Position numbers and translations under genes: made by a program. From positions 1 to 44,385 of the IMG/VR virus record IMGVR_UViG_3300049434_000008: DNA of 44,385 bases, one strand, 5' to 3'. How positions within the stretch are numbered: position 1 is the first letter of the stretch; each line of letters begins with the position of its first letter. The DNA is from a virus. This document shows, one piece after another, positions 1,958-39,515 of this stretch. The notes beneath the pieces were generated by a model, which saw nothing but the letters and a program-made list of their open reading frames with translations, ran no database searches and was not told the origin of the DNA.

Positions 1958-3217
1958 GTGACGAAAGAGAAGCGTCGGCAGTACGGGACGGGCGCGGTCT
2001 ACCAGCGCAGCAACGGAAGATGGGTCGGCGCCATCGACGCCGGCTACACCGCCCGCGGCACCCGCCGGCAGATCACCGTCTCCTGCTCGAAAGACCTGGG
2101 CGAACCGGAGATCAAACGACTCTTGAAGGCGAAGCTGAAGGAGATCGAGAAGAACGGGCTACCCACCGCTGGCGCGACCGCCCGGACCACCGTCAAAGTC
2201 TGGGCAGAGCAGTGGCTCGAACACCAGTCGACGTCGAAGCGACCGAAGTCGTTCGCCACCGACCGATCCCAGGTCAAGGTGTGGATCATCCCCACCATCG
2301 GCCACAAGCGCCTCGACACCCTCACCCCCGCCGACGTCCGCGCCGTCGCCACCGCTGTCCTGAAAGCCGGGCGCACATCATCCACCGCACTCCGCGCGCA
2401 GGTCGTCCTGACCAAGATGCTGAAAGACGCACTGATCGAAGGCCACCAAGTCCCCCACCGCGTGCTGATGCTCACCGCGCCGGCCGCGTCGAAGTCCGAC
2501 CGTGACGCCGTGGACATGAAAGACGCACTGGCCATGCTGAAGGTCGCCGTGGAGCAACCCGGCGGGTCCAGGTGGGTCGCTGCGTTCCTGCAGGGCATGC
2601 GGCAGGGTGAATGCCTCGGTCTGACGTGGGACGCGGTCAACTTCGACGCTGGGACGGTCGACGTGTCCTGGCAACTGCAAGCGGTCCCCTACCGGCACGG
2701 GTGTATGCGCGACGGCGGCAAGTGGGAGTGCGGGCGGCGGTTCGGCGGCGACTGCCCCGACCGAGCGCTGCGCGTCCCCCACGGCTACGAGTACCGGCAA
2801 CTCGACGGCGCACTATGCCTCGTCCGCCCGAAGACCGAGAAAGGCACACGCCTCATCCCCCTCGTGCCGTGGATGACCGCAGCGCTGACGCAGTGGCGCG
2901 ACATCGCCCCCGCATCGCCGCACGGACTGATCTGGCCCCGCCCCGATGGGCGCCCGCAAACATCCGCCGCAGACAGCAGCGATTGGCAGGCGTTGCAGGA
3001 CACTGCGGACGTGACCGGCCCCGGGCGGAAGTACCTGCTCCACGAAGCCCGGCACACCACCGCGACCCTGCTCCTCGAAAACGGTATCGATCCCGAGGTG
3101 GTGAAGGCCATCCTCGGGCACTCGTCGATCGTCACCAGCCGCGGCTACCAGCACGTCTCCCAGGAGCTTGCGCGCAAGGCTATGGAAGGCATCGCCGGGC
3201 GGCTGCTGCTCAGCTAG
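1958..3217 (+). CDS. int: Tyrosine integrase
   Basis: A 419-residue site-specific recombinase that joins attP to the host tRNA-Thr gene. Residues 1-65 look like the arm-binding domain ('YGTGAVYQRSNGRWVGAI'), 75-165 the SAM-like core-binding domain, and about 185-410 the catalytic domain. Catalytic residues are visible: Arg215 ('GMRQGE'), His362 and Arg365 ('HEARHT'), His388 ('GHSS') and the nucleophile Tyr397 ('SRGYQHVS'). A Cys-containing insertion (about residues 249-286) between box I and box II seems common in actinobacterial phage integrases. It starts with GTG right after the stop of the upstream gene. Its end overlaps the convergent gene at 3210 by 8 bases, so integrase transcription runs against the repressor transcript. 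Confidence 0.95.
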   Translation: MTKEKRRQYGTGAVYQRSNGRWVGAIDAGYTARGTRRQITVSCSKDLGEPEIKRLLKAKLKEIEKNGLPTAGATARTTVKVWAEQWLEHQSTSKRPKSFATDRSQVKVWIIPTIGHKRLDTLTPADVRAVATAVLKAGRTSSTALRAQVVLTKMLKDALIEGHQVPHRVLMLTAPAASKSDRDAVDMKDALAMLKVAVEQPGGSRWVAAFLQGMRQGECLGLTWDAVNFDAGTVDVSWQLQAVPYRHGCMRDGGKWECGRRFGGDCPDRALRVPHGYEYRQLDGALCLVRPKTEKGTRLIPLVPWMTAALTQWRDIAPASPHGLIWPRPDGRPQTSAADSSDWQALQDTADVTGPGRKYLLHEARHTTATLLLENGIDPEVVKAILGHSSIVTSRGYQHVSQELARKAMEGIAGRLLLS

Positions 3218-6686: not shown

Positions 6687-6920
6687 ATGACGGGACCAGA
6701 GCACTACACCGAAGCGGAACGTCTCTTGCAGGCATGGGACGAAACGATGAACGAGTCGATGGGCCAGGCGGACTTTGAGATTCAGACCATCGCTGCCGCT
6801 CCGGTGGCGGCAGTGATCGTCGCCGCAGCGCAAGCCCACGCGACGCTCGCGCTAGCCGCTGCGAATGTCCCGCATCCTGCGAGCCATAACGGTGCATGGC
6901 TGTCGGCGGTGTCGTCGTGA
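6687..6920 (+). CDS. Hypothetical protein, 'EAERL' family copy 2
   Basis: This 77-residue paralog of the 6053 product has the same 'MTGPEHYTEAERLL' opening and 'AHATLALAAANV' helix, with a different middle rich in Ala/Val that could lie against a membrane. The stop overlaps the GTG of the next gene. Function unknown. Confidence 0.68.
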   Translation: MTGPEHYTEAERLLQAWDETMNESMGQADFEIQTIAAAPVAAVIVAAAQAHATLALAAANVPHPASHNGAWLSAVSS

Positions 6921-7168
6921 GCGGCCCTACTCCTAGCCAGAATCGCCTACTCGACGACGGAATCCGACGACACAGAGAAGCCAAGGCAACCGCTGACGTG
7001 CAGCGGTGCCGCGAATACAACGAGTACGGCGAACCGCTCGACGACTTCACCGCACGGGACATCGCCGGCATGTTGTGGTGCGTCGCGACACGCCTCTTCT
7101 GGGGCACGGTGGTTTTCGCCCTCATCACGTTCTGGCTCTGCTGGGCAGCAGGGCAGGTACAGACATGA
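6917..7168 (+). CDS. Tail-anchored small membrane protein
   Basis: This 83-residue protein starts at GTG (GTGA overlap with the upstream stop). The first 55 residues are polar and charged. Residues 58-78 form one membrane segment ('LFWGTVVFALITFWLCWAAG') close to the C-terminus. The stop overlaps the ATG of the RNA ligase gene, so it belongs to that operon. Function unknown. Confidence 0.65.
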   Translation: MSGPTPSQNRLLDDGIRRHREAKATADVQRCREYNEYGEPLDDFTARDIAGMLWCVATRLFWGTVVFALITFWLCWAAGQVQT

Positions 7169-8253
7169 CCAACCTGACGGACCTCTTCGACAAGAACCTG
7201 TTCGACGCGATGGTCGACGGCGGTTACGTCCGCGTCCAGCATCACCCGGAGTTCGACCTGCACATCGCTAACTACGCCGAGAAGGCGCAGTTCGAGCACG
7301 TCTGGAACGACGTCACACTGACCTGCCGGGGTTTGATCTTCGATTCATCGGGGGAGATCAAGGCCCGGCCGTACCGGAAGTTCTTCAACTACGGCGACGA
7401 GCAGAACACCGGCCCGCTGGACCTCGACGCGCCCGTAGTGGTCACGGACAAACTTGACGGGTCACTCGGCATCCTGTACCCGACACCGCACGGCGGCTGG
7501 GCTATCTCTACACGCGGGTCGTTCACCAGCGACCAGGCACTGCACGCCACTCAGGTATTGCAGAGTCGGTACCCGGACTTCCAGCCGCTGCCGAACTTCA
7601 CCTACCTCTGGGAGATCGTGTACCCGGAGAACAGGATCGTCGTCGACTACAACGGGTTCGATGACCTGATCCTCCACGGACTCATGCACATTCCAACCGG
7701 GCGGGTCTCTGAAACGTTGGGTGATGACACATGGCTCGGACCGGAAGCTGAGACGTTCGGGTACGAGTCACTCTCCCAAGCCATCGCTGCGGCACCACGG
7801 GCTAACCGTGAAGGGTTGGTTGTCCGGTACACCGACACCGACCTGATGGTGAAGCTGAAGCAAGAGGACTACGTCGCACTGCACCGCATCATCACCGGGT
7901 TGAACGCCCGGACAGTGTGGGAGTGGATCGGCGGCGGCAAGACGGTCGGGGACTTGTGCGCGACCCTGCCTGACGAGTTCCACGGCTGGGTCCTGGACCT
8001 CGTCGCCGAACTGGAAACCGCAGCCGCCCAAATGTTGAAAGGCGCGCAGGAAGCCCACGCGCAGATCCTCGCGTCCTTACCGCTGGTGTACGGGCGCCGG
8101 GACTACGCCGCCCTAGCGTCGAAATCTGCATACCGGCCCTACCTGTTCCTGCTGCTCGACGGCAGGGAGCAGACGTGCCGGGAATCTATCTGGCGCGAGA
8201 TTAAACCATCTGGCGCGCGGTCGATGGTCAACCATTCGGAGACAGTCGCATGA
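7165..8253 (+). CDS. RNA ligase, T4 Rnl1-like
   Basis: A 362-residue ATP-dependent ligase that would seal broken RNA ends (5'-phosphate to 3'-OH). The adenylated lysine is Lys96 in motif I ('DKLDGSLG'). Other nucleotidyltransferase motifs follow: 'STRG' (residues 115-118), 'LWEIVYPENRIVV' (motif III, about 148-160), 'REGLVVRY' (motif IV, about 215-222) and 'MVKLKQ' (motif V, Lys230 and Lys232). The last 120 residues are helical, like the Rnl1 C-terminal domain. It is coupled by ATGA to a polynucleotide kinase-phosphatase; in T4 this pair repairs host tRNA cut by the PrrC anticodon nuclease. A similar anti-defence job is inferred here. A DNA ligase is unlikely because there is no OB-fold tail. 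Confidence 0.9.
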   Translation: MTNLTDLFDKNLFDAMVDGGYVRVQHHPEFDLHIANYAEKAQFEHVWNDVTLTCRGLIFDSSGEIKARPYRKFFNYGDEQNTGPLDLDAPVVVTDKLDGSLGILYPTPHGGWAISTRGSFTSDQALHATQVLQSRYPDFQPLPNFTYLWEIVYPENRIVVDYNGFDDLILHGLMHIPTGRVSETLGDDTWLGPEAETFGYESLSQAIAAAPRANREGLVVRYTDTDLMVKLKQEDYVALHRIITGLNARTVWEWIGGGKTVGDLCATLPDEFHGWVLDLVAELETAAAQMLKGAQEAHAQILASLPLVYGRRDYAALASKSAYRPYLFLLLDGREQTCRESIWREIKPSGARSMVNHSETVA

Positions 8254-9185
8254 GCACCCTGCACCTAACCAGAGGACTCCCAGCGTCGGGTAAGACGACG
8301 TTCGCCAAAGCATGGGTAGCGGAAGACCCGGAACATCGGGTGCGGTTGAACCGGGACGACATCCGGGCCATGGTCCACACCGAGCACGGCGGGTACCTCA
8401 CCGAGCGCGCAACAACGATCGTCCAGCACAACGCCGCGAACGGGCTGCTCCGCAAGGGCTACGACATCATCGTCGATGATACGAACTTCACCGCCAGGTT
8501 CGTCAAGGAATGGCTGAAGCTCGCAGAGCGGCAGGGCGCAACCGTCGAATGGCATGACCAGTTCCTTCAGGTAGGTCTACAGGAATGCATAGACCGGGAC
8601 GAGGTTAGAGCGGTACGCGGTGGGCATTCCGTCGGGCCGAAGGTCATCCAGTCGATGCATGACCGGTACCTTGCGTCGGGCAGGCTCGAGCGGCCAACCG
8701 TGGACGGTTCCGCTGATTCGGCGAAGCCCTACACCGGAACGCCGGGGGCGCGGAAGGCCGTCATCGTCGACATCGACGGCACGCTCGCACTGAACCTGGG
8801 CGGACGGTCTCCCTATGACTGGCAGCGGGTCGGCGAAGACTCCGTCAACCGCCCGGTGGCGGACATGGTCGACATGTTCCAGCAAGCCGGGTACGAGCTG
8901 ATCTTGATGTCCGGGCGGGACGAGATCTGCCGCGAAGCCACCGAGCAGTGGCTGTTCGACAACGGCATCCTCACCGACCGGCTGGGGTGGGAAGTGTTCC
9001 CGCACCTGTTCATGCGGGCACATGAGGACAACCGGAAAGACTCCATCGTCAAACTCGAACTGTTTGACCTGCTGGTCCGGGACCATTTCGACGTCAAGTA
9101 CGTCATCGACGACCGTAACCAAGTCGTAGCGGCGTGGCGGTCGATCGGGCTGACGGTCCTGCAAGTCGCTGACGGTGACTTCTGA
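8250..9185 (+). CDS. Polynucleotide kinase / 3'-phosphatase, T4 Pnkp-like
   Basis: A 311-residue two-domain end-healing enzyme. Residues 1-150 form the 5'-OH kinase: Walker A 'GLPASGKT' (9-16) and 'RLNRDDIRAM' (32-41), matching the T4 Pnkp acceptor-site Asp/Arg signature. Residues 168-311 form a HAD-type phosphatase: 'VDIDGTL' with Asp174 and Asp176, 'LMSGRDE', and a final 'YVIDDRNQVV'. Together these convert 2',3'-cyclic phosphate or 3'-phosphate and 5'-OH ends to ligatable ends. The gene is coupled to the upstream RNA ligase, making a complete heal-and-seal cassette. The following small membrane gene starts on its stop codon. Confidence 0.93.
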   Translation: MSTLHLTRGLPASGKTTFAKAWVAEDPEHRVRLNRDDIRAMVHTEHGGYLTERATTIVQHNAANGLLRKGYDIIVDDTNFTARFVKEWLKLAERQGATVEWHDQFLQVGLQECIDRDEVRAVRGGHSVGPKVIQSMHDRYLASGRLERPTVDGSADSAKPYTGTPGARKAVIVDIDGTLALNLGGRSPYDWQRVGEDSVNRPVADMVDMFQQAGYELILMSGRDEICREATEQWLFDNGILTDRLGWEVFPHLFMRAHEDNRKDSIVKLELFDLLVRDHFDVKYVIDDRNQVVAAWRSIGLTVLQVADGDF

Positions 9186-9283
9186 TGACCGTCTTCCGTC
9201 GTGTGGGGGTTGTGGCTGGCCTCGCCTGCTGGGTGCTGGCTGGGGTAGTAGCCGCCTGGATCAGACAGTGGACACGGACATGA
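9185..9283 (+). CDS. 32-residue single-pass membrane microprotein
   Basis: This short gene is wedged exactly between its neighbours: its ATG shares a base with the stop of the kinase-phosphatase and its TGA overlaps the ATG of the DUF1643 gene. The product is almost entirely one membrane helix (residues 6-26) with basic residues at both ends ('MTVFRR' and 'RQWTRT'). The strict coupling supports real translation. Function unknown. Confidence 0.55.
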   Translation: MTVFRRVGVVAGLACWVLAGVVAAWIRQWTRT

Positions 9284-9741
9284 CGGGCTACCGGTACACG
9301 CTCACCCGCGAATGGGAATCAGACACTCCGGGCTGTGTCCTCTGGGTGATGCTAAACCCGTCAACGGCCGACGAATCGAACGACGACGCGACTATCCGCA
9401 AGGTCACCAAGTTCTCGAAGGCGTGGGGATACGGGTCGCTCGAGGTCGTTAATCTCTTCGCCGCTAGGGCGACCGACCCCGACGAGTTGAAGCGGATCGC
9501 TCATCCGGTCGGGATGGAGAACGACCACCACATCGGGCAGGCACTGCTACGTGCGTCGATCATCGTTGCAGCGTGGGGAGCGTCCTACCCCGCCGTCTTG
9601 TCGATGCGTCCTTACCGGATGCGGAAACTGCTGCTCCAAAGCGGCCTCCCGGTCCACCATCTTGGACTGACGAAGGCTGGCGACCCGCGCCACCCGCTGT
9701 ATGTCAAAGACGCCGAGCCGCTCATTGCGTGGTCGCCGTGA
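9280..9741 (+). CDS. DUF1643 family protein
   Basis: This 153-residue protein starts at ATG 9280. The family pattern is clear: 'YRYTLTREW', 'LWVMLNPSTADESNDDATI', 'LEVVNLFAARATDPDELK', a central 'VAAWG', and a C-terminal 'HHLGLTKAGDPRHPLYV'. DUF1643 proteins are common in phages and bacteria; I know of no established activity, though the conserved N/S/D and H residues suggest an enzyme or nucleotide-related role. It directly follows the RNA-repair genes in one overlapping operon. Confidence 0.88.
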   Translation: MTGYRYTLTREWESDTPGCVLWVMLNPSTADESNDDATIRKVTKFSKAWGYGSLEVVNLFAARATDPDELKRIAHPVGMENDHHIGQALLRASIIVAAWGASYPAVLSMRPYRMRKLLLQSGLPVHHLGLTKAGDPRHPLYVKDAEPLIAWSP

Positions 9742-9866
9742 GGTACCACCTGGCTCGTCTCCGTTGCTGGGCCTACTACCGGAGGGGCGCCGACTTCTGG
9801 GCTGGGCTCCGGACAGGTTGGTTCCGCGACGACCACTTCGATGTATACCCCGAGGACGACTCATGA
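9738..9866 (+). CDS. 42-residue hypothetical protein
   Basis: It starts with GTG overlapping the DUF1643 stop (GTGA) and ends with ATGA overlap into the methyltransferase gene. The product is rich in aromatic and Arg residues ('RRGADFWAGLRTGWFRDDHF'). No family was recognised; coupling on both sides is the main evidence. Confidence 0.5.
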   Translation: MRYHLARLRCWAYYRRGADFWAGLRTGWFRDDHFDVYPEDDS

Positions 9867-10396
9867 GCTTGGTCGGGTTCAGAGCGCAGAACCATCCGCA
9901 GCAGACAAGGTTTCGGGCGGCGGCGAAGGACGAGATCGACGACCGCGCGACGACGCTGGAAGTGTTCGAGCCGCTGAACGAGCGGTTCCGGTTCACCGTC
10001 GATGTTGCTGCAGCGGCTCACAACACGAAGCTGCCACGGTTCTACGACCGTGACGAAGACGGACTGCAGCACGGCTGGGGCAGTGAGCGCGTCTGGTGCA
10101 ACCCCCCGTACTCCGACATTCGCCCTTGGGTTGAGAAAGCATGGGAAGAGTGGGACACGTGGCCGCCCGACGCGCCAGCCACCGCAGACCTGATCGTCAT
10201 GCTCCTTCCCGCGAACCGCACCGAGCAGAAGTGGTGGCAGGAACTCGTAGAGCCACACTTGCGGGCCAAGCGGTCCGACTTCCACTGCGAGTTTCTATCT
10301 GGCCGGATGCGATTCCTTCGCGCTGGACAGACGGAGATCGGACCTAATGAGCGGCCCCCGTTCGGCGTCTGCCTGCTGATCTGGCAAAGGCAGTGA
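9863..10396 (+). CDS. Dam-type phage N6-adenine methyltransferase
   Basis: This 177-residue protein starts at ATG 9863. It matches the phage DNA N-6-adenine-methyltransferase family: 'TLEVFEPLNERFRFTVDVAA', 'NTKLPRFYDRDEDGL', the catalytic 'NPPY' at residues 80-83, 'VMLLPANRTEQKWW' and 'FLSGRMRF'. It would methylate adenine in phage DNA, typically in short sites, as protection from restriction. The position after DUF1643 and before recombination genes fits an early modification gene. Target site unknown. Confidence 0.9.
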   Translation: MSLVGFRAQNHPQQTRFRAAAKDEIDDRATTLEVFEPLNERFRFTVDVAAAAHNTKLPRFYDRDEDGLQHGWGSERVWCNPPYSDIRPWVEKAWEEWDTWPPDAPATADLIVMLLPANRTEQKWWQELVEPHLRAKRSDFHCEFLSGRMRFLRAGQTEIGPNERPPFGVCLLIWQRQ

Positions 10397-10551
10397 CCAT
10401 CTGCGAGTTCGAAGTCCACTGGTGGGACTGCGACCTCGACGAAACCTGCACCAGACCCCTCGGCCACCGAGGACACCACACAGACGGACTTTGGTGGTTC
10501 GACCAGCAAGGCCATCGGGTACCCAGAGACACAGAACAGGACACGACATGA
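10393..10551 (+). CDS. 52-residue Cys/His-rich hypothetical protein
   Basis: It starts with GTG overlapping the methyltransferase stop and ends with ATGA overlap into the annealing-type gene. It contains three Cys and three His ('EFEVHWWDCDLDETC' and 'RPLGHRGHH'), which could hold a zinc ion. Function unknown. Confidence 0.55.
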   Translation: MTICEFEVHWWDCDLDETCTRPLGHRGHHTDGLWWFDQQGHRVPRDTEQDTT

Positions 10552-11219
10552 CCAACCCGTTAGAGGCGCTGCAGAAGCCCTTCCCGAAGACGAAGATCGG
10601 CAAACTCCCGAAGATCACATGCGGAGCCTGCTCGAAGTCGAACACCAAGAACTGCCAGGAACATAAGAAGCGCAGGTGCGTCGACTGCGGCAACTACATC
10701 ACCACCGCCCACCTCCACCTCGATTACGTCGGGCACGCTGAGGTGACCCGCCGGCTGCTCGAGGTTGACCCTCGGTATGAGTGGGAGCCGGTCGCGTTCG
10801 ACGCGAATGGCCTGCCTGCTCTGGACAGTTCGGGTGGGATGTGGATCCGGCTCACCGTCCACGACGCTGACGGCCTCCCCGTCACACGGCTGGGGTACGG
10901 GGACGCGCCGGGGAAAAGCTCGGCGATGAAGGAGCTGATCGGTGACGCGATCCGCAATGCCGGTATGCGGTTCGGGATCGCCCTCGATCTGTGGTCGAAG
11001 GAACGGGACGACTACACGGTTGAGGAGGGCACTCCACCGCCCCCACCGCCGCCTGTGAAGACGTACGCGCAGTACCTGGAAATGATCGTCACTTCCTCCG
11101 ATATGGGGACGTTGGCGAAGGTGGGGACAGAGATGGCCGCCGCGTCCATCCCGGAGGGTGACCGGACGGCTTTGCGGGCTGAGTACACCGCCCGCCTGAA
11201 GGAGCTGAAAGCGTCATGA
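10548..11219 (+). CDS. Probable single-strand annealing protein (Rad52/Erf-like)
   Basis: A 223-residue protein. Residues 25-50 carry four Cys in two pairs ('CGACSKSNTKNC', 'RRCVDCGN'), probably zinc-binding. Residues 55-160 show the pattern of phage Rad52/Erf-like annealing proteins: 'AEVTRRLLEVDPRYEW', a beta strand, 'RLGYGDA', then 'SAMKELIGDAIRNAGMRFGI'. A Pro run and a helical tail follow. It is coupled by ATGA to a YqaJ exonuclease, the usual partner in phage two-component recombination. The exact annealing superfamily cannot be fixed by eye. Confidence 0.75.
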   Translation: MTNPLEALQKPFPKTKIGKLPKITCGACSKSNTKNCQEHKKRRCVDCGNYITTAHLHLDYVGHAEVTRRLLEVDPRYEWEPVAFDANGLPALDSSGGMWIRLTVHDADGLPVTRLGYGDAPGKSSAMKELIGDAIRNAGMRFGIALDLWSKERDDYTVEEGTPPPPPPPVKTYAQYLEMIVTSSDMGTLAKVGTEMAAASIPEGDRTALRAEYTARLKELKAS

Positions 11220-12079
11220 CTGAACTGTCGCCGCTGCGGGTTGGGCGGATCACGGGGTCGCGGGTGTCGAAGATCCTCGGCAAGTCACCGTACGGGGATC
11301 GGGCGTCGGTGCTGCGGGAAATGGTCCGCGAACGCCTCGGTGGGGTTACGGAGTTCACGGGGAACATCGCAACCCAATGGGGTTTGGACCACGAGAACGA
11401 AGCCATCACAGAGTACGAGCGGTACCGGGGTGTGATGGTCACCGAAGGTCAGGAGATCGCGATCCACCCGACCCACGACTACCTCGCGGTCACCCCGGAC
11501 GGGTTGGTTGGAGACGCGGGGATGGTAGAAGTTAAATGCCCCTACCGAGCCGGGTACATCTCCATCGAAGACCGCCCGGACTACTTCGAGCAGATCCAAC
11601 TACAGCTGCATGTGACGGGCCGGGCGTGGTCTGACTTCGTTGTGTGGCGCACCACCGGAATCTCCGTATCCACCGTCCTACGGGATGACGGCTGGCTCAC
11701 CCAGCATCGGGGAGAGTTCGAAGAGTTCATGGTCGAGTACGAGACGATCATCGCCAACCCCGACCTGGCCGCGCCGTTCCTCGACGCGACGGGCCCGGAT
11801 GAGCGGGACGACTTCGACTGGCAGTTGGCCGCCGTCGAATACCTGGAGGCGAACGCGGCCCTGAAACGCGCTGAGACCGCACGGGACACCGCACGGGGCC
11901 GACTCATCGAACTGGCCGGCGACGAGCCCGCACGGGGCGGTGGGGTGCTGCTGCTCCGCACGGAACGTAAGGGCTCGGTCGACTACGCGAAGGCTGTCAA
12001 GGAGAACCTGCCTGGTGTCGACCTCGAGCCTTACCGCAAGGCCGGTTCCGTCGTGGTGTCTGTCCGGGTCGCGTCATGA
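11216..12079 (+). CDS. YqaJ-like viral exonuclease
   Basis: This 287-residue nuclease of the lambda-Exo/YqaJ fold would chew one strand of DNA ends to feed the annealing protein made just upstream. Visible motifs: 'RITGSRVSKILGKSPYGD' (11-28), 'GLDHENEAI', the metal ligands 'VTPDG' with Asp95 and 'VEVKCPY' with Glu105 and Lys107, and 'QIQLQLHVTG'. The C-terminal 80 residues are helical. Start and end are coupled to neighbours (ATGA). Confidence 0.9.
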   Translation: MTELSPLRVGRITGSRVSKILGKSPYGDRASVLREMVRERLGGVTEFTGNIATQWGLDHENEAITEYERYRGVMVTEGQEIAIHPTHDYLAVTPDGLVGDAGMVEVKCPYRAGYISIEDRPDYFEQIQLQLHVTGRAWSDFVVWRTTGISVSTVLRDDGWLTQHRGEFEEFMVEYETIIANPDLAAPFLDATGPDERDDFDWQLAAVEYLEANAALKRAETARDTARGRLIELAGDEPARGGGVLLLRTERKGSVDYAKAVKENLPGVDLEPYRKAGSVVVSVRVAS

Positions 12080-12219
12080 GTCACGTCGAGGTGTTCGTCA
12101 CCGACTACACCCATATCTGGGGTTGGCAGTGCTTGGACTGCGGCGCGACCAACGCTGGATATCGGGCTATGGGTACCGCTGAGCATGACGGCGACCTGCA
12201 TGTTTGCGAGGAGTCGTGA
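12076..12219 (+). CDS. 47-residue zinc-ribbon-like protein
   Basis: A short product with 'WQCLDCGATNAGYRA' (C-x2-C), a later Cys and several His, consistent with a single zinc site. The start overlaps the exonuclease stop, and its TGA overlaps the GTG of the HNH gene. Function unknown. Confidence 0.55.
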   Translation: MSHVEVFVTDYTHIWGWQCLDCGATNAGYRAMGTAEHDGDLHVCEES

Positions 12220-12491
12220 GGGCCGTCAGTAAGAAGCGGGCAGCGGCCAACCGGCTGCGGGTGAAGAACCTCGCGCATGTCCGGGAGTTCCAGACGTGGT
12301 GCTCGAAATGCGGGCAGACGGGTGTCGGTTTGGACGCGCACGAGTTGAAGTCCCGCGCCCAGGGCGGGTCGATCACCGACCTGGAGAACATCGTCCTACT
12401 GTGCCGACCCTGCCACCAGCAGATCACCGAGAACCATCGAGAAGCCGCTGAGCAGGGCTGGGCTGTCAGCAAGAAATGGGGGGCGGCATGA
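12216..12491 (+). CDS. HNH endonuclease
   Basis: This 91-residue protein starts at GTG. It has a basic N-terminus ('KKRAAANRLRVKN'), a first zinc pair ('WCSKCGQ'), the HNH core with 'LDAHELKSRAQGGSITDLEN' and a second zinc pair 'LLCRPCHQQI'. It would nick or cut DNA. Located among recombination genes rather than at the terminase (a different HNH gene is at 25623), it may be a recombination nuclease or a stripped homing-type enzyme. Confidence 0.88.
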   Translation: MRAVSKKRAAANRLRVKNLAHVREFQTWCSKCGQTGVGLDAHELKSRAQGGSITDLENIVLLCRPCHQQITENHREAAEQGWAVSKKWGAA

Positions 12492-12847
12492 AGTACACGC
12501 TGCAACTGAGCATCACCCGCCCGCCGCTGTCGCTGAACGTGCCGATGAACCACTACGCCAAGGCGCGGATCGTCCGAGAGTTGAAGGATGAAGCGCACAC
12601 CCGCTGCCTGGCGCTGAAGATCCCGAAGGGCTGCAAGCAGGCCACTTACACGCTGACTTACCACCCGTCTGATCTGCGAAGTCGGGACACGGACAACCCC
12701 ACCCCGACACTGAAAGCCCTCATCGACGGCGCCACCCGCTACGGGGTGACGGCTGATGACTCGTCGGAGTACGTCACCTCCAGCTGCGTAATCGGCAAGG
12801 TACGGAAGCCGTCCGAAGTGACGTTGACTATCGAGGTTGTCCAGTGA
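12488..12847 (+). CDS. rusA: RusA-like Holliday junction resolvase
   Basis: A 119-residue protein. The RusA signature is present: 'SDLRSRDTDNPTPTLKALID' with Asp67, Asp69, Lys76 and Asp80, followed by 'GVTADDSSEY' with Asp90 and Asp91. RusA dimers cut four-way junctions formed in recombination and replication. It follows annealing, exonuclease and HNH genes and completes the recombination set. Confidence 0.85.
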   Translation: MKYTLQLSITRPPLSLNVPMNHYAKARIVRELKDEAHTRCLALKIPKGCKQATYTLTYHPSDLRSRDTDNPTPTLKALIDGATRYGVTADDSSEYVTSSCVIGKVRKPSEVTLTIEVVQ

Positions 12848-13227
12848 GGGCCCTCCAGATCGTCCACGGATCGGAAGCTGTCTACCGCCGTGGGTGCCGG
12901 TGCGATACGTGCGTGCAATCGTCCCGACGGAGGACGAACGCGTACCGGGCACGCATCCGGGGTGGTGGCGTCCCGCATCTTGAAGGGAAGCCGGTCTCGG
13001 CCGCGACCTTCACGCGGTTCTTCTGCCGCTGCAATGACTGCCGCAGCGCGTACCTGGCGAAGCGGGAAGATGCTCGGCTTGAGCGTCTCGGCAGGAAACT
13101 CCCGCCACGCCCCAGATTGGTCGTGGAGCAGACGATCGCACGGTACGGGGTGCGGGGCGCGATGGACAGGCTGGGTATGTCCTACGACGAACTGAAGCCG
13201 CTGCTGGACGTGATGTCCGGTGACTGA
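12844..13227 (+). CDS. Hypothetical Cys-rich DNA-binding-type protein
   Basis: This 127-residue protein starts at GTG overlapping the RusA stop. The N-terminal half has two Cys clusters ('YRRGCRCDTCVQSSRR' and 'FFCRCNDCRSAY'), each followed by basic residues, and each probably binds zinc. The last 35 residues ('IARYGVRGAMDRLGMSYDEL') look like a helix-turn-helix. The pattern 'HGSEAVYRRGCRCDTC' recurs in actinophage proteins of unknown role. Nucleic-acid binding is inferred. Confidence 0.68.
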   Translation: MRALQIVHGSEAVYRRGCRCDTCVQSSRRRTNAYRARIRGGGVPHLEGKPVSAATFTRFFCRCNDCRSAYLAKREDARLERLGRKLPPRPRLVVEQTIARYGVRGAMDRLGMSYDELKPLLDVMSGD

Positions 13228-13408
13228 CGTGACTTTGATGCAGTACCTGCGTCCGTTCCACGGAGGCCAATCCGCTACCAACCGACTCATCGGTGGCGGG
13301 CATGTGAGCGTCAACGGAACCATCATCTTCATCCCCGACTATCCGCTGTATGACGGGGATCTGATCCAGGTCGGCAAGTCCTGGCGCCGGGTTGTGGGTG
13401 CGGCGTGA
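13220..13408 (+). CDS. S4-like RNA-binding domain protein
   Basis: A 62-residue protein whose middle follows the S4 pattern: 'TNRLIGGGHVSVNGTIIFIP', then 'YPLYDGDLIQVGK'. S4 domains bind structured RNA. It would be a stand-alone domain with no enzyme attached. It starts with GTG, overlapping the previous gene by 8 bases. A role with the RNA-repair genes 4 kb upstream is possible but not shown. Confidence 0.68.
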   Translation: MTDVTLMQYLRPFHGGQSATNRLIGGGHVSVNGTIIFIPDYPLYDGDLIQVGKSWRRVVGAA

Positions 13409-13599
13409 CCGAACATTACGAGGACCTCGGAGGGCAACCCGTGAGGCTCGGGAAGTTCAAAGGCAAACCCGCCTCATGGGGTGGGTGTGTCCACACCGAA
13501 GACCCGTGGGGGCATTACCTCGACCCGGACGGCAAACCCACCGGACGTAGATGCCCCTGCTGCTACGAGCCACCAACAGACGAAACTGAGGGAAAGTGA
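13405..13599 (+). CDS. 64-residue hypothetical protein with C-terminal Cys triplet
   Basis: Starts with GTG overlapping the S4-like gene. It has one Cys mid-protein ('WGGCVHTEDPWGHYLDPDG') and 'RRCPCCYEP' near the end, a probable zinc site. No known family. Confidence 0.55.
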   Translation: MTEHYEDLGGQPVRLGKFKGKPASWGGCVHTEDPWGHYLDPDGKPTGRRCPCCYEPPTDETEGK

Positions 13600-14161: not shown

Positions 14162-15259
14162 ATGACCGGACAACCCCGGGTCGGTTCGTTGTTCAGCGGC
14201 TACGGCGGACTGGACGTGGGCGTCACGTCTGTGGTGGGCGGGTCGGTGGCGTGGCATTGCGAGATCGAAGCGGCACCGAGCAAGATCCTCGCGCATCACT
14301 GGCCCGAGGTGCCGAACCTGGGCGACATCACGCGAGTGGACTGGACATCGGTTGAACCCGTGGACGTGCTGACGGGTGGCAGTCCGTGTCAGGACGTGTC
14401 CGCGGCTGGTCGTAGGGCTGGGATGAAAGCCGGCACCCGTTCCGGGTTGTGGGCGTCAATGGTGGACGCGATCGACGTGCTGCGTCCTCGCCTGGTGGTT
14501 TGGGAGAATGTTCGTGGCGTCACTTCGGCGGAAGCTGATAGCGGTTTGGAACCCTGCACGGGATGTGTGGGAGACGGGGATGACGGGGCTGTTCTGCGAG
14601 CACTCGGACGTGTTCTCGGAGACTTGGCCGACTGCGGGTATGACGCACGCTGGTACGGCCTACGCGCTGCCGACGTCGGCGCCCCTCACGGACGGTTCCG
14701 GGTCTTCGTCGTTGCTACCGACACCCGACGCACAGATGGGCAACGGCGGTCGAGTGCGGTCCCCGGAAGCCTTAGCGCGAGGCGATCATCAGGTGGACCT
14801 GAACAACATCAGCCGGTTACTGCTGCCCACGCCAACGTCGCGGGATCACAAGGGCGCGAACCAACGGCAGGACGAGACCTGCCTGACCGGGGCGCTGCTA
14901 CCGACACCAACCGCGACCCCGTACGGCTCGAATCAATCAGCGAGCTCGGGAGCGGCGGTACGTCCGAGCCTGGACACGCTATTCGCTGGGGACAGTACGA
15001 ATCCGCTATCCGACGATGGGAGCGGGTCCTCGGACGGGTAGCGCCCGCACCGACCGAGCTCGCACCGAAGGGTGGGCAGCGACTCTCACCCGCGTTCGTC
15101 GAGTTCATGATGGGACTCCCCGCCGGCCACGTAACCGCCGTCCCTGGGATCTCACGCAACGAGCAACTCAAGGCCCTCGGTAACGGCGTCGTGCCGCAAC
15201 AAGCCGCGGCTGCTGTGTCGTTCCTGCTGACCGCCCAACTTGAGGAGAAGGCCGCATGA
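14162..15259 (+). CDS. DNA cytosine-5 methyltransferase
   Basis: A 365-residue enzyme. Motif I 'SLFSGYGGLDVG' (AdoMet binding, 9-20), motif IV 'GGSPCQDVS' with catalytic Cys76, motif VI 'WENVRG' with Glu115, motif VIII 'GRFRVFVVA', and motif X 'LGNGVVPQQAA' near the end are all present in order. The stretch 'LSPAFVEFMMGLPAGHVT' before motif X is common in phage C5 enzymes. It would methylate cytosine at an unknown site to resist restriction. An unusually long open frame (14508-15041) runs through its variable target-recognition part in the +1 frame. It is coupled by ATGA to the next gene. Confidence 0.93.
   Translation: MTGQPRVGSLFSGYGGLDVGVTSVVGGSVAWHCEIEAAPSKILAHHWPEVPNLGDITRVDWTSVEPVDVLTGGSPCQDVSAAGRRAGMKAGTRSGLWASMVDAIDVLRPRLVVWENVRGVTSAEADSGLEPCTGCVGDGDDGAVLRALGRVLGDLADCGYDARWYGLRAADVGAPHGRFRVFVVATDTRRTDGQRRSSAVPGSLSARRSSGGPEQHQPVTAAHANVAGSQGREPTAGRDLPDRGAATDTNRDPVRLESISELGSGGTSEPGHAIRWGQYESAIRRWERVLGRVAPAPTELAPKGGQRLSPAFVEFMMGLPAGHVTAVPGISRNEQLKALGNGVVPQQAAAAVSFLLTAQLEEKAA
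14508..15041 (+). CDS. Candidate overprinted gene inside the C5 methyltransferase
   Basis: A 177-codon open frame lies wholly inside the methyltransferase in the +1 frame. Its product is not typical GC-frame noise. It has 'FCEHSDVFSETWPTAGMTHA' and three repeats of 'LLPTP' ('SLLPTPDAQ', 'LLLPTPTSRDHKG', 'LLPTPTATPYG'). I recall phage proteins with this 'ETWP..GMT...LPTPTARD' character. The same three sites read 'ATDTR', 'TAAHAN' and 'ATDTN' in the methyltransferase frame. The start has only a weak ribosome site (GGGAGA too close to ATG). It could be a real overlapping gene or an often misannotated shadow. Confidence 0.35.
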   Translation: MFVASLRRKLIAVWNPARDVWETGMTGLFCEHSDVFSETWPTAGMTHAGTAYALPTSAPLTDGSGSSSLLPTPDAQMGNGGRVRSPEALARGDHQVDLNNISRLLLPTPTSRDHKGANQRQDETCLTGALLPTPTATPYGSNQSASSGAAVRPSLDTLFAGDSTNPLSDDGSGSSDG

Positions 15260-15513: not shown

Positions 15514-16121
15514 CCCCCTTATCGAAAGGCTCACCGATGACCGGAACAGACGAACAGGTCCGCGAGATCACCTTTTCGGAGGTCCGTCCGGGTGACCGGG
15601 TGTCAGTGGTGACCACGTACGGAGTCAAATTGGAGGGCGAAGTGGACGAGGGCACGGACAGCAGATCGTTGTGGCTTGGCCGCACTGATTGGCGCCACAT
15701 CATCCCCGCCGATCGCATCTCGTCGTTGCGTTTGTTGTCCCCACCAGCACCGAAATGGCAGGCAGGGGACGTGGTGCGACTGACTTTTGATGACTCCGTT
15801 TGGGCGAGGACCGGCTGGAAGAACGACAACGCGCCATGGGTGCGGATCGACAGCGAGGCGAAGGCGTGGCACAGCGACGACTTCATGACGGGGTACGAGT
15901 ACACGCTCCTGGTCCGCGGTGGACAGCCCGTGCTGCCTGCTGTGGTGCCCGTGGACGGGTCAACGGGGGTCGGCGAGGGGCAGAGGACCAGGGAAGCGTC
16001 TAAGACCGACCTGATGCGCGCCTGTGCTTACGCCCACGAGCACCACTTGATGCTGCGTTGCGGGCACTGCGGGTACGAGTCACTCAACTTTCAACGCGGC
16101 GCATCGGAGAATGCCCCGTGA
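15510..16121 (+). CDS. Hypothetical protein with repeated small beta domains
   Basis: The protein has 203 residues from ATG 15510 (ATGA overlap); an ATG at 15537 behind GAAAGG is an equal alternative. The first half has two short beta-rich stretches typical of small barrel folds ('FSEVRPGDRVSVVTTYGVKL' and 'QAGDVVRLTFDDSVWARTG'). The C-terminus carries 'HHLMLRCGHCGYESL', a zinc-ribbon knuckle. Function unknown. Confidence 0.6.
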   Translation: MTPLSKGSPMTGTDEQVREITFSEVRPGDRVSVVTTYGVKLEGEVDEGTDSRSLWLGRTDWRHIIPADRISSLRLLSPPAPKWQAGDVVRLTFDDSVWARTGWKNDNAPWVRIDSEAKAWHSDDFMTGYEYTLLVRGGQPVLPAVVPVDGSTGVGEGQRTREASKTDLMRACAYAHEHHLMLRCGHCGYESLNFQRGASENAP

Positions 16122-16176
16122 ACACAACGGGAAACCCGGTCGGGATGGTAGAATCAAACAAGAATCGGGGGGATTC

Positions 16177-17127
16177 ATGAGCGAGCCGTACTACAGCGAC
16201 GACACGGTGACGCTCTGGCATGGGGATTCGCTGGAAGTGCTCAGCGGCATGGCGGCCCAGTCGGTGGATTGTTGTGTCACGTCGCCGCCGTACTTCGGTC
16301 TCCGTGACTACGGCAGCGACGGGCAGTACGGTCTCGAAGCGTCACCCGCTGAGTACGTCGAAACCATGCGGGCGGTGTTCGCCGAAGTGCGGCGCGTGCT
16401 CGCCGGCGACGGGACACTCTGGCTGAACATCGGAGACTCCTACAGCGGGTCCGCGAAGAACCTGATGGGTATGCCGTGGCGGGTGGCGTTCGCGTTGCAG
16501 GACGACGGCTGGATCCTCCGCAACGCGATCATCTGGCACAAGCCCAACGCGATGCCCGAGTCCGTCACGGATCGGCTATCCACCCGGTACGAGCAGGTTT
16601 TCATGTTCTCCAAGAGCCGTCGCTACTGGTTCGACCTGGACCCCATCAGAGAACCGATCGTCTCCGAGCGGACCGGTGCTCTTTCGTGGGAACGCGACGC
16701 AGCGAAGGAACGCGACCTACCGGGGGCGCGAGTGCAGAAGCGGCCCGGGCGGACGTGGGACCAGAGAAAGGAAAGGGGAGCCCAGCCGCGGCGAGGTATC
16801 GACCCTGCCTCATCGGTAGGTGACAGCGACTTCGTGGCAGCGCCTCAAGGACGCAACCCTGGCGACGTCTGGACCATCGCGACGCAGCCGTTCCGCGAGG
16901 CGCACTTCGCGGTCATGCCAACGGCACTAGCCGAACGCTGCATCCAAGCCGGGTGCAAGCCATCCGGTGTCGTGCTCGACCCGTTCAGTGGCAGCGGCAC
17001 CACGGGGCTAGCGGCCGGGAAGCACGGACACCCGTACGTCGGGATCGACTTGAACTCCGAGTACCTCGACCTGTCCCTGCGGACCCGGCTCGCGCAGGCG
17101 TCCCTTATTGACGGTGAGGCGTCATGA
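16177..17127 (+). CDS. DNA methyltransferase, TSPPY class (N4-C or N6-A)
   Basis: The protein has 316 residues from ATG 16177; an in-frame ATG at 16111 would overlap the upstream gene and has no better site. The catalytic 'TSPPY' is at residues 35-39 and the AdoMet-binding 'DPFSGSGTT' at 268-276. This catalytic-before-binding order defines the beta group, which modifies N4 of cytosine or N6 of adenine. Other marks: 'HGDSLEVL', 'GTLWLNIGDSY', 'IIWHKPNAMPESV'. It is the third methyltransferase of the phage. Target unknown; solitary, with no restriction partner nearby. Confidence 0.92.
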   Translation: MSEPYYSDDTVTLWHGDSLEVLSGMAAQSVDCCVTSPPYFGLRDYGSDGQYGLEASPAEYVETMRAVFAEVRRVLAGDGTLWLNIGDSYSGSAKNLMGMPWRVAFALQDDGWILRNAIIWHKPNAMPESVTDRLSTRYEQVFMFSKSRRYWFDLDPIREPIVSERTGALSWERDAAKERDLPGARVQKRPGRTWDQRKERGAQPRRGIDPASSVGDSDFVAAPQGRNPGDVWTIATQPFREAHFAVMPTALAERCIQAGCKPSGVVLDPFSGSGTTGLAAGKHGHPYVGIDLNSEYLDLSLRTRLAQASLIDGEAS

Positions 17128-36803: not shown

Positions 36804-36964
36804 CCGTGTCCTGGATGTGGCCCGGGATAACGCCATTCAACGTGTGGGACCTGCCTTACGACATGTGGCAGATGTACGCCACCGCAGCCGCGGAAATCGA
36901 AGAGAAACAAGCTCAGGGGGGTAGAAGTGGCGTCCAAGTCCCTGAGCTTCCTCCTGTTCGGTGA
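36345..36964 (+). CDS. Tail assembly chaperone, frameshifted long form (gpGT-like)
   Basis: The -1 frame is open from 36662 to the TGA at 36962-36964 and reads 'YDGDAWRSDAAIRRDRERAQ', 'SVYTHILTVSWMWPGITPFN' and 'DLPYDMWQMYATAAAEIEEK', which is far more protein-like than the zero frame there. A -1 slip within 36662-36803 would fuse it to the short form; CCC-T at 36671-36674 ('DAPDP' then 'YDGDAW') is a good candidate, and CCAAAG at 36744-36749 is another. The extension ends inside the tape measure gene. Confidence 0.75.
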
Positions 36965-39515
36965 GGACGTCACTGCCTCGAAAGCATTCGCGAAGGTAGC
37001 GAAGTCGGCTGAGGTTGCGGACGGGCAGATCAAGAAGGCATTCGGCGGCGGGTCGCTCCTAGCTATCGGTGCGCTCGCTGGTGGTCTGGGTTTGGCCGTG
37101 AAGGGCGCCGCTGACTATCAGACTGCGATGACCCGCCTGGTTACGGCTGGTGGTGAGTCGGAGAAGAACCTCGCGTTGGTGTCCAAGGGTGTTATGGCGG
37201 TGTCGTCCGCGACTGGCACCGGTTTGCATGCTGCTGGTGACGCGATGTACTACATCGAGTCGGCTGGGTTCCACGGCGCTAAGGGCCTCGCGGTGTTGAA
37301 GGCCGCTGCGCAGGGCGCGAAGGTTGAAGGCGCTGACACGAAAGTCGTCGCTGACGCGCTGACCACGGCGTTAACTGACCTCGGCAAGCACGCGGGGCCT
37401 CCTGCTGTGGTCATGTCCCAGTTGGTGGAAACGGTCGCGCACGGCAAACTGACGATGGACGCTCTGGCGGGGTCGCTGCATTCAGTCCTCCCAAACGCGT
37501 CCGCTATCGGGATCTCCTTCGGGCAGGTCGCCGGTGCGATCGCGACGATGACCGCGCAGGGTATCTCAGCGGATCAGGCTACGCAGAACTTGAACCACGC
37601 CATCCTGTCTCTGGCGAACCCGACCGCTGTTCAGACGAAGGCGATGGCCGCGTTCGGGTTGAACGCGTCGGTCGTTGCGAAGAACCTCGGCAAGCAAGGT
37701 CTCACGGGCACGCTTGAAGAGTTGACAAATACCATCACCAGCCACATGGGGCCGGCTGGTTTGACGATCACCAACTCGTTGAACACGAGCAAGATCGCTG
37801 CGGACAAGGTGTCCGAGGGTTATAAGGCGATGGTTCCCGCGGCGCAGAAGTATTTCGACGCGCTGGTGAGCGGTAAGACCATCTCCCAGAGCACCATCGA
37901 CGGGACTAAGGGTCTCACGTTGGCTCAGGATACCCAGATCAAGCAACTGGTGGTGCTGTACAAGCGGGCGAGTGGGTTCTCTGATCTGCTGAAGTCCGGC
38001 AACCCGGATGCCTTGACCTACGCTGCGGCGTTGTCGAAGATGACGGGTGGCGCTACGGGCTTGCAGGTCGCGCTGCACTTGACCGGCGACAACCTGGAGA
38101 CGTTCAAGAAGAACGTCACGGATGTCAGTAAGACGACGGCTGATGCTGGCGGAAACGTCAAGGACTTCGCGGTTCAGCAGCAGACGCTGAACGGGAAACT
38201 CGCGGACTTGAAGGTGTCGGCTAGCAACATGGCCGTTACGTTCGGGACGCAACTGATTCCGGCGCTCACCAGTGCTGCGGACTTCACGTTGAAGCACAAG
38301 ACCGCCATCGAGGCGCTGGTCGGGTCGCTGCTGGCGATGAAGGTCGGCATGATGGGCGTCAGTTTCACTATGGGTGCCATCGCCACAGCGCAGACCGTGT
38401 GGGCCGCGTCGACCGCGGTCATCACCGCTGGCGTGTCCGGGTTGGAGACCGCGTACGTCGCTGCGATGTACGCCATGGAAGTGGCGACGGGCCCGGTTGG
38501 TATCGCGATCGGTGTTGCTGCTGCCGCTATAGCGATCGGAACGAAGGGCTTCGGTCTGTTCGGCGGTTCCGCGCATGCACAGATTAAGCCTGTGCAGGCG
38601 TTGACGGACGCGATCACCGCTGATGGTGACGCTGTTGGGAAGCTGACCACCGCGCAACTGAACAACACTCTGCAGTCCAAGGGCGCGTACGACGCTGGTA
38701 TCAAACTCGGTTTGAGCCAGCGGACGATCTTGCAGGCTGCGTTGGGTAACGCCGCGGCGCAGAAGGAGGTCCGGGCGGCTACGGATGCTGCGACCAACGC
38801 AGTGAAGAATGCTACGTCGGCTGACCACATTCACCGGTCAGGTATCGGTGATGTTACGAAGGCGCAGAAGGACGCTAAGGCCGCGGCTGATCTGCTGAAC
38901 GGGTCGGTGAACACGCTGACGGGCCAGTTGGGTGCGTCGAAGCATGCCGCGGACAACGTGGCCGCAGCATTGCGGGGGATACCTAAGTCGATCACTCCGC
39001 GTATTGCGCTCCTAAACGCACAGACCGTCGAAGCGCAGATTGACTATCTGACCCGGTCGCGGTCGATCCAAGTTTCGCTGCAGTCGCAGAACTCGAACAC
39101 CAAACTGGCCGCGCAGTTGGCGAACTCTCCGCTCCACCCGGCCACCGGGGGCCTATTGATTGGTCCTGGTTCTGGGACTTCGGACTCGATCCCAGCGATG
39201 GTCTCCAACGGCGAGTATGTCGTGAACGCGGCGGCTACAGCGAAATTCCGGCCATTCCTGGACGCGATCAACGGCAGCGGGGTCCACCGCGCACCGGGAT
39301 ATGCCACGGGTGGCGCGGTAGGCGTTTCGGGTGGGAATCAGTCGAGGTTCGTGACGAACTGGCAGAACGCGTCACGCGGCGGCGGGGATGTGTACATCAC
39401 CGTCAACGCTGGTTTGGGCACCAACGGGCCGGCGGTGGGGAAGCAGATCGCTGCTGAGTTGGAGCGGTACGTCGGCGGCGGCGGCAAAGTCAAGATCGCT
39501 CGGGGCGTGAACTAG
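36927..39515 (+). CDS. Tape measure protein
   Basis: An 862-residue protein, the largest in the genome, setting tail length. It starts at GTG behind GGGGGG. Residues 40-60 are hydrophobic ('GGGSLLAIGALAGGLGLAVK'). The 'TAMTRLVTAGGESEKNL' and 'GISFGQVAGAIATMTAQGIS' segments match the TP901-type tape measure core. A second hydrophobic stretch lies at about residues 465-535. The last 120 residues contain 'GPGSGTSDSIPAMVSNGEYV', usual in this family. The final 'VGKQIAAELERY' is shared with the 25250 product. It overlaps the chaperone long form. Confidence 0.93.
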   Translation: MASKSLSFLLFGEDVTASKAFAKVAKSAEVADGQIKKAFGGGSLLAIGALAGGLGLAVKGAADYQTAMTRLVTAGGESEKNLALVSKGVMAVSSATGTGLHAAGDAMYYIESAGFHGAKGLAVLKAAAQGAKVEGADTKVVADALTTALTDLGKHAGPPAVVMSQLVETVAHGKLTMDALAGSLHSVLPNASAIGISFGQVAGAIATMTAQGISADQATQNLNHAILSLANPTAVQTKAMAAFGLNASVVAKNLGKQGLTGTLEELTNTITSHMGPAGLTITNSLNTSKIAADKVSEGYKAMVPAAQKYFDALVSGKTISQSTIDGTKGLTLAQDTQIKQLVVLYKRASGFSDLLKSGNPDALTYAAALSKMTGGATGLQVALHLTGDNLETFKKNVTDVSKTTADAGGNVKDFAVQQQTLNGKLADLKVSASNMAVTFGTQLIPALTSAADFTLKHKTAIEALVGSLLAMKVGMMGVSFTMGAIATAQTVWAASTAVITAGVSGLETAYVAAMYAMEVATGPVGIAIGVAAAAIAIGTKGFGLFGGSAHAQIKPVQALTDAITADGDAVGKLTTAQLNNTLQSKGAYDAGIKLGLSQRTILQAALGNAAAQKEVRAATDAATNAVKNATSADHIHRSGIGDVTKAQKDAKAAADLLNGSVNTLTGQLGASKHAADNVAAALRGIPKSITPRIALLNAQTVEAQIDYLTRSRSIQVSLQSQNSNTKLAAQLANSPLHPATGGLLIGPGSGTSDSIPAMVSNGEYVVNAAATAKFRPFLDAINGSGVHRAPGYATGGAVGVSGGNQSRFVTNWQNASRGGGDVYITVNAGLGTNGPAVGKQIAAELERYVGGGGKVKIARGVN
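39441..39464 (+). repeat. 24-base match to the 25250 gene
   Basis: Identical to 25490-25513 and in the same frame, near the 3' end of the tape measure gene. Confidence 0.85.

Follow-up and report, generated by a model that had tools for sequence, protein, structure and literature searches.

Gene content of the locus

The stretch of DNA analysed here (the window) is an IMG/VR virus sequence of 44,385 bases that carries terminase, portal and tape-measure genes. A tyrosine integrase gene at 1958-3217 (PF00589, E 1e-16) supports the initial annotation of this phage as temperate, and a BRO/ANT antirepressor is also encoded in the record. The closest terminases are those of Arthrobacter phages (52%) and the closest portal proteins those of Gordonia phages (38%), so by these similarities the host is likely actinobacterial. 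Three DNA methyltransferases are encoded, namely a Dam-type enzyme (9863-10396, PF05869), a C5-cytosine methyltransferase (14162-15259, PF00145) and an N6/N4 methyltransferase (16111-17127, PF01555), and their presence in one record suggests protection against restriction.

The predicted genes of the interval 6896-13599 overlap almost without interruption. The following features of this block are relevant here:

7165..8253, + strand: predicted Rnl1-type ATP-dependent RNA ligase, 362 aa (PF09511, phrog_562, fold, catalytic residues)
8250..8253, + strand: ATGA start/stop overlap between the ligase and Pnkp genes (sequence)
8250..9185, + strand: predicted T4-type polynucleotide kinase-phosphatase (Pnkp), 311 aa, with N-terminal P-loop kinase and C-terminal HAD phosphatase (PF25109, AAA_33, 1ltq)
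9185..9283, + strand: hydrophobic open reading frame of 32 residues overlapping the Pnkp stop and the DUF1643 start (sequence; linked by position only)
9280..9741, + strand: DUF1643 protein, 153 aa (PF07799, E 1.3e-40)

Another open reading frame of the block, at 13220-13408, had been described as a stand-alone S4-like gene. It does resemble the S4 RNA-binding domain (E 9e-4), but its score of 19.3 bits lies below the Pfam cut-off of 22.8 and it is therefore regarded as a weak S4 candidate.

The two enzymes are predicted to be an Rnl1-type RNA ligase and a T4-type Pnkp

The open reading frame at 7165-8253 contains the motifs reported for it earlier, with K96 in KLDGS, E216 in EGLVV and K230 and K232 in MVKLK (the ATG at 7165 encodes residue 1). 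An alignment of 61 sequences shows no variation at R55, K96 (the nucleophile), E150, E216, K230 and K232, and the nucleotidyltransferase motifs of an Rnl1-type enzyme (KxDG, R, E, EGxV, KxK) are all represented. The protein matches PF09511 (RNA_lig_T4_1) with an E value of 4.5e-14 and a score of 53.3 against a Pfam cut-off of 28.3, as well as phrog_562 (E 8e-70), and a search of PDB sequences matched T4 Rnl1 chains alone (E 2e-11 to 1e-10). When its AlphaFold model (mean pLDDT 93.6) was compared with known structures using Foldseek, T4 Rnl1 was the best match (E 3e-15, about 370 columns), followed by the fungal tRNA ligase Trl1, and both matches span nearly the whole ligase, including the C-terminal helical domain that is part of the Rnl1 fold. 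Identity to T4 Rnl1 is only about 21-24% over the Foldseek alignment, and the overall TM of 0.58-0.60 together with a high rmsd indicates that the domain arrangement differs from that of T4 Rnl1 or flexes. With all catalytic residues and the C-terminal helical domain shared with the T4 enzyme, the protein is assigned to the Rnl1 type on sequence and predicted structure.

The second gene (8250-9185) encodes a protein with the motifs GLPASGKT and DIDGT, confirming that it possesses both a GxxxxGKT and a DxDGT site. It matches HAD_PNKP (PF25109, E 5.5e-50), AAA_33 (E 6.6e-20) and phrog_505 (E 2e-89), and its residues 3-311 align with T4 Pnkp (PDB 1ltq, E 5e-39), in which the kinase is likewise N-terminal and the HAD phosphatase C-terminal. 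G14, K15, D36, R39, R120, D174, D176, R223, K268, D287 and D288 are kept in nearly all of 117 aligned sequences. Both active sites are present in the expected domains, and the protein is predicted to be a full T4-type Pnkp.

A role of the ligase on nicked DNA or in tail-fibre attachment, instead of on RNA strands, also had to be considered, as phrog_562 bears the label 'RNA ligase and tail fiber protein attachment catalyst'. The T4 protein has tail-fibre attachment as a second activity. However, the partner gene encodes an RNA-type Pnkp, the tail genes lie far from the ligase (tape measure at 36927-39515), and the nearest folds are those of RNA ligases, human DNA ligase 1 appearing among the Foldseek matches only at E about 2e-4. 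A function of this kind is judged highly improbable.

Ligase and Pnkp form a recurrent pair that does not extend to DUF1643

The initial annotation had the ligase fused to the kinase by ATGA. A four-base ATGA overlap is indeed present, but the two genes encode separate proteins and there is no fusion. Start/stop overlaps (ATGA, TGATG and ATGA) join the ligase gene to the Pnkp gene, the latter to the 32-residue open reading frame and this in turn to the DUF1643 gene. As overlaps run through nearly all genes between 6896 and 13599, the ATGA junctions do not delimit a unit, and gene overlap was discarded as a sign of a four-gene unit.

It is the recurrence of the ligase-Pnkp association in other genomes that identifies it as a genuine unit. 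Among the matches listed, Pnkp is present in 68 of 85 viral (IMG/VR) ligase loci, and in bacterial genomes it occurs in 63 of the best-scoring 80; the locus samples consist of the best-scoring 80 per scan and do not give frequencies across all phages, and some of the ligase loci lacking Pnkp end at a contig boundary. In these 165 ligase loci listed, the linked Pnkp is nearly always encoded on the same strand as the ligase and less than 3 kb away. Of 114 measurable pairs, 37 have ligase and Pnkp genes that overlap or abut, and four-base overlaps occur in many phage and bacterial pairs, although many phages hold the two genes slightly separated.

The 32-residue peptide and the DUF1643 protein are encoded downstream of Pnkp as originally described, and both had been proposed as possible parts of the repair system, the peptide as a membrane component. 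The start/stop overlaps joining all four genes would be consistent with this proposal. However, not one of the 165 ligase loci listed (85 viral and 80 from bacterial genomes) contains DUF1643, no ligase or Pnkp of this family was found in the 81 viral DUF1643 loci listed, and the four genes occur together in no locus of either set. The annotated phages BetterKatz, Bipper, Purky, ValentiniPuff and LKA5 encode DUF1643 without a repair pair next to it, the peptide matches no PHROG and yielded no homologue when the related loci were searched, and overlaps of the same kind are shared by nearly all genes of the block. In this tightly packed block the peptide and the DUF1643 protein are encoded next to the repair pair without being components of it, and their acting together with ligase and Pnkp is considered very unlikely indeed.

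Among 107 neighbours of DUF1643 genes no recurrent family was detected; DNA methylases of the families C5 (2), MT-A70 (2) and D12 (1) and RNA ligases of PF09414 (2) were encountered, and there may be an occasional link to the latter, which belong to another ligase family. The AlphaFold model of the DUF1643 protein has an alpha/beta structure (pLDDT 92) and gave no PDB match at E < 1e-3. R5, S28, D31, D36, N58, W99 and H138 are invariant, which suggests an enzyme. The motifs NPS and HPLY, and later the position of a DUF1643 gene near the gene for the inhibitor SAUGI in a staphylococcal SCC element (PMC10821479), raised the idea of a relative of uracil-DNA glycosylase (UDG). This idea was rejected, as the 50 structure matches listed included no UDG and none at E < 1e-3, and a profile search of PDB sequences yielded nothing convincing.

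Predicted function in RNA repair

Sequence, fold and catalytic residues of the ligase-Pnkp pair bear out the earlier view of a heal-and-seal cassette as far as these two genes are concerned, but not its extension to the membrane peptide and DUF1643. Ligase and Pnkp very probably constitute a two-gene RNA heal-and-seal module of the T4 type. By analogy with T4, through family identity, Pnkp would take off the 2',3'-cyclic or 3' phosphate left by an endoribonuclease and would phosphorylate the 5'-OH left by the same cut. The ligase would adenylylate itself on K96, transfer AMP to the new 5'-phosphate and join the end activated in this way to the 3'-OH. The likeliest substrate would be a host tRNA that a nuclease, of a defence system or acting as a toxin, had cut in the anticodon loop upon infection or induction; in this way the module would keep translation going.

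The proposal of a tRNA substrate draws on the T4 precedent and on tRNA genes near phage ligases. Among the matches listed, tRNA genes occur in 44 of 85 viral ligase loci, but in only 1 of 81 DUF1643 loci, which corresponds to 346 tRNA genes in 1,021 kb near viral ligases versus 2 in 906 kb near DUF1643. When only contigs of 40-70 kb were taken from these matches, tRNA genes were present in 9 of 31 ligase loci versus 1 of 36 DUF1643 loci, a drop which indicates that large phages account for part of the association; the association may partly reflect large phages rich in translation genes.

The T4 pair, which mends cut tRNAs, acts against PrrC (PMC12409363), the same RNA-repair role was proposed earlier for mycobacteriophages of Clusters J, E and L (PMC3706429), and a counter to Cas13a has been put forward as a suggestion (PMC11042736). 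Counter-defence is the established explanation for ligase-Pnkp pairs of this kind (PMC3706429, PMC12409363), and by analogy a role in countering tRNA-directed defence appears reasonably probable for the pair described here. No PADLOC defence match was obtained for ligase, Pnkp or DUF1643.

Alternatively, the pair might mend RNA damage arising outside host defence, such as stress-induced or phage-made cuts, or might serve the general maintenance of translation. The same pair is found among unrelated genes in actinomycete, Bacteroidota and cyanobacterial genomes, no recurrent partner, whether nuclease or defence gene, was found at the pairs in bacterial genomes, and ARAGORN detected no tRNA gene in the window. 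The occurrence of pairs in bacterial genomes without a recurrent defence partner argues that the pair is not solely a counter-defence tool of phages. Nevertheless, the T4 precedent and the association of the phage copies with tRNA genes speak for counter-defence, and repair unconnected with host defence is considered rather unlikely for this phage.

Comparison with known repair systems

Unlike their T4 counterparts, the ligase and Pnkp genes of this phage overlap, and neither Stp nor PrrC was identified as a partner of the pair. The Arthrobacter phages Bauer and Seahorse possess the same two genes in the same order, with a four-base overlap according to the annotated coordinates, and their proteins share 47% (ligase) and 43% (Pnkp) identity with those of the phage studied here. 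In both phages the genes are already annotated, as RNA ligase and as polynucleotide kinase or ATPase, but neither DUF1643 nor the 32-residue peptide adjoins the pair and other genes lie downstream. In Seahorse, a second annotated RNA ligase (gp74; locus L019, 1595-2203) is located about 3 kb upstream of the pair.

Other actinophages with Pnk and RNA ligase are the mycobacteriophages of Clusters J, E and L (Omega gp136/gp162). They differ from the present case in that the Pnk and RNA ligase genes of Cluster J are not closely linked, whereas they overlap here, and in that every member of the three clusters carries at least one tRNA gene (PMC3706429). The ligase-Pnkp pair as such is therefore not new, being annotated in Bauer and Seahorse and having had a role proposed in mycobacteriophages (PMC3706429). 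The Pnkp1-Rnl-Hen1 complex is a bacterial counterpart that heals and seals RNA cut by ribotoxins (PMC4411300). It differs from the pair in that no adjoining Hen1 methyltransferase was found in this phage, whose ligase and Pnkp are nearest to the T4 enzymes.

Relatives of the ligase in actinomycete genomes

The nearest relatives of the ligase are encoded in Actinoallomurus (56-57%), Streptomyces beijiangensis (54%) and Actinocorallia (53%). The tree places it in a set of six, three from bacterial genomes and three viral (itself counted), with an SH-aLRT value of 98, and the well-supported branches require at least 12 changes of label between virus and genome. The Actinoallomurus copy lies on a contig of 33 kb, and other loci labelled as genome may be prophages. 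The copies in Actinocorallia, Streptomyces, Dactylosporangium and Longispora are situated among apparently ordinary chromosomal genes, these neighbours having been recognised by eye in the translated sequences; a single PCRF domain was detected. As the nearest relatives include chromosomal pairs of actinomycetes, sequence comparison indicates that ligases of this family were probably transferred on several occasions between phages and cells, in one direction or the other.

A further-reaching reading, offered tentatively and with some doubt, is that Rnl1-Pnkp is a mobile RNA-repair module, repeatedly swapped between actinobacterial chromosomes and phages, in which the chromosomal copies would serve true tRNA repair and would have been the source of the copy in this phage. 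Although the phage finding in itself is ordinary, it provides a further compact heal-and-seal pair with overlapping genes, from an actinophage with a record of 44 kb, and links the family to the chromosomal copies of actinomycetes. Two questions thereby become testable, namely whether T4-style tRNA repair is used by bacteria themselves and whether phages acquired it from them. Two chromosomal pairs, in Dactylosporangium roseum (locus L179, 9992-11957) and Longispora albida (locus L182, 10001-12104), are each located near an apparent prfA gene for release factor 1, and such Micromonosporaceae pairs represent a possible case of cellular RNA repair in the T4 style.
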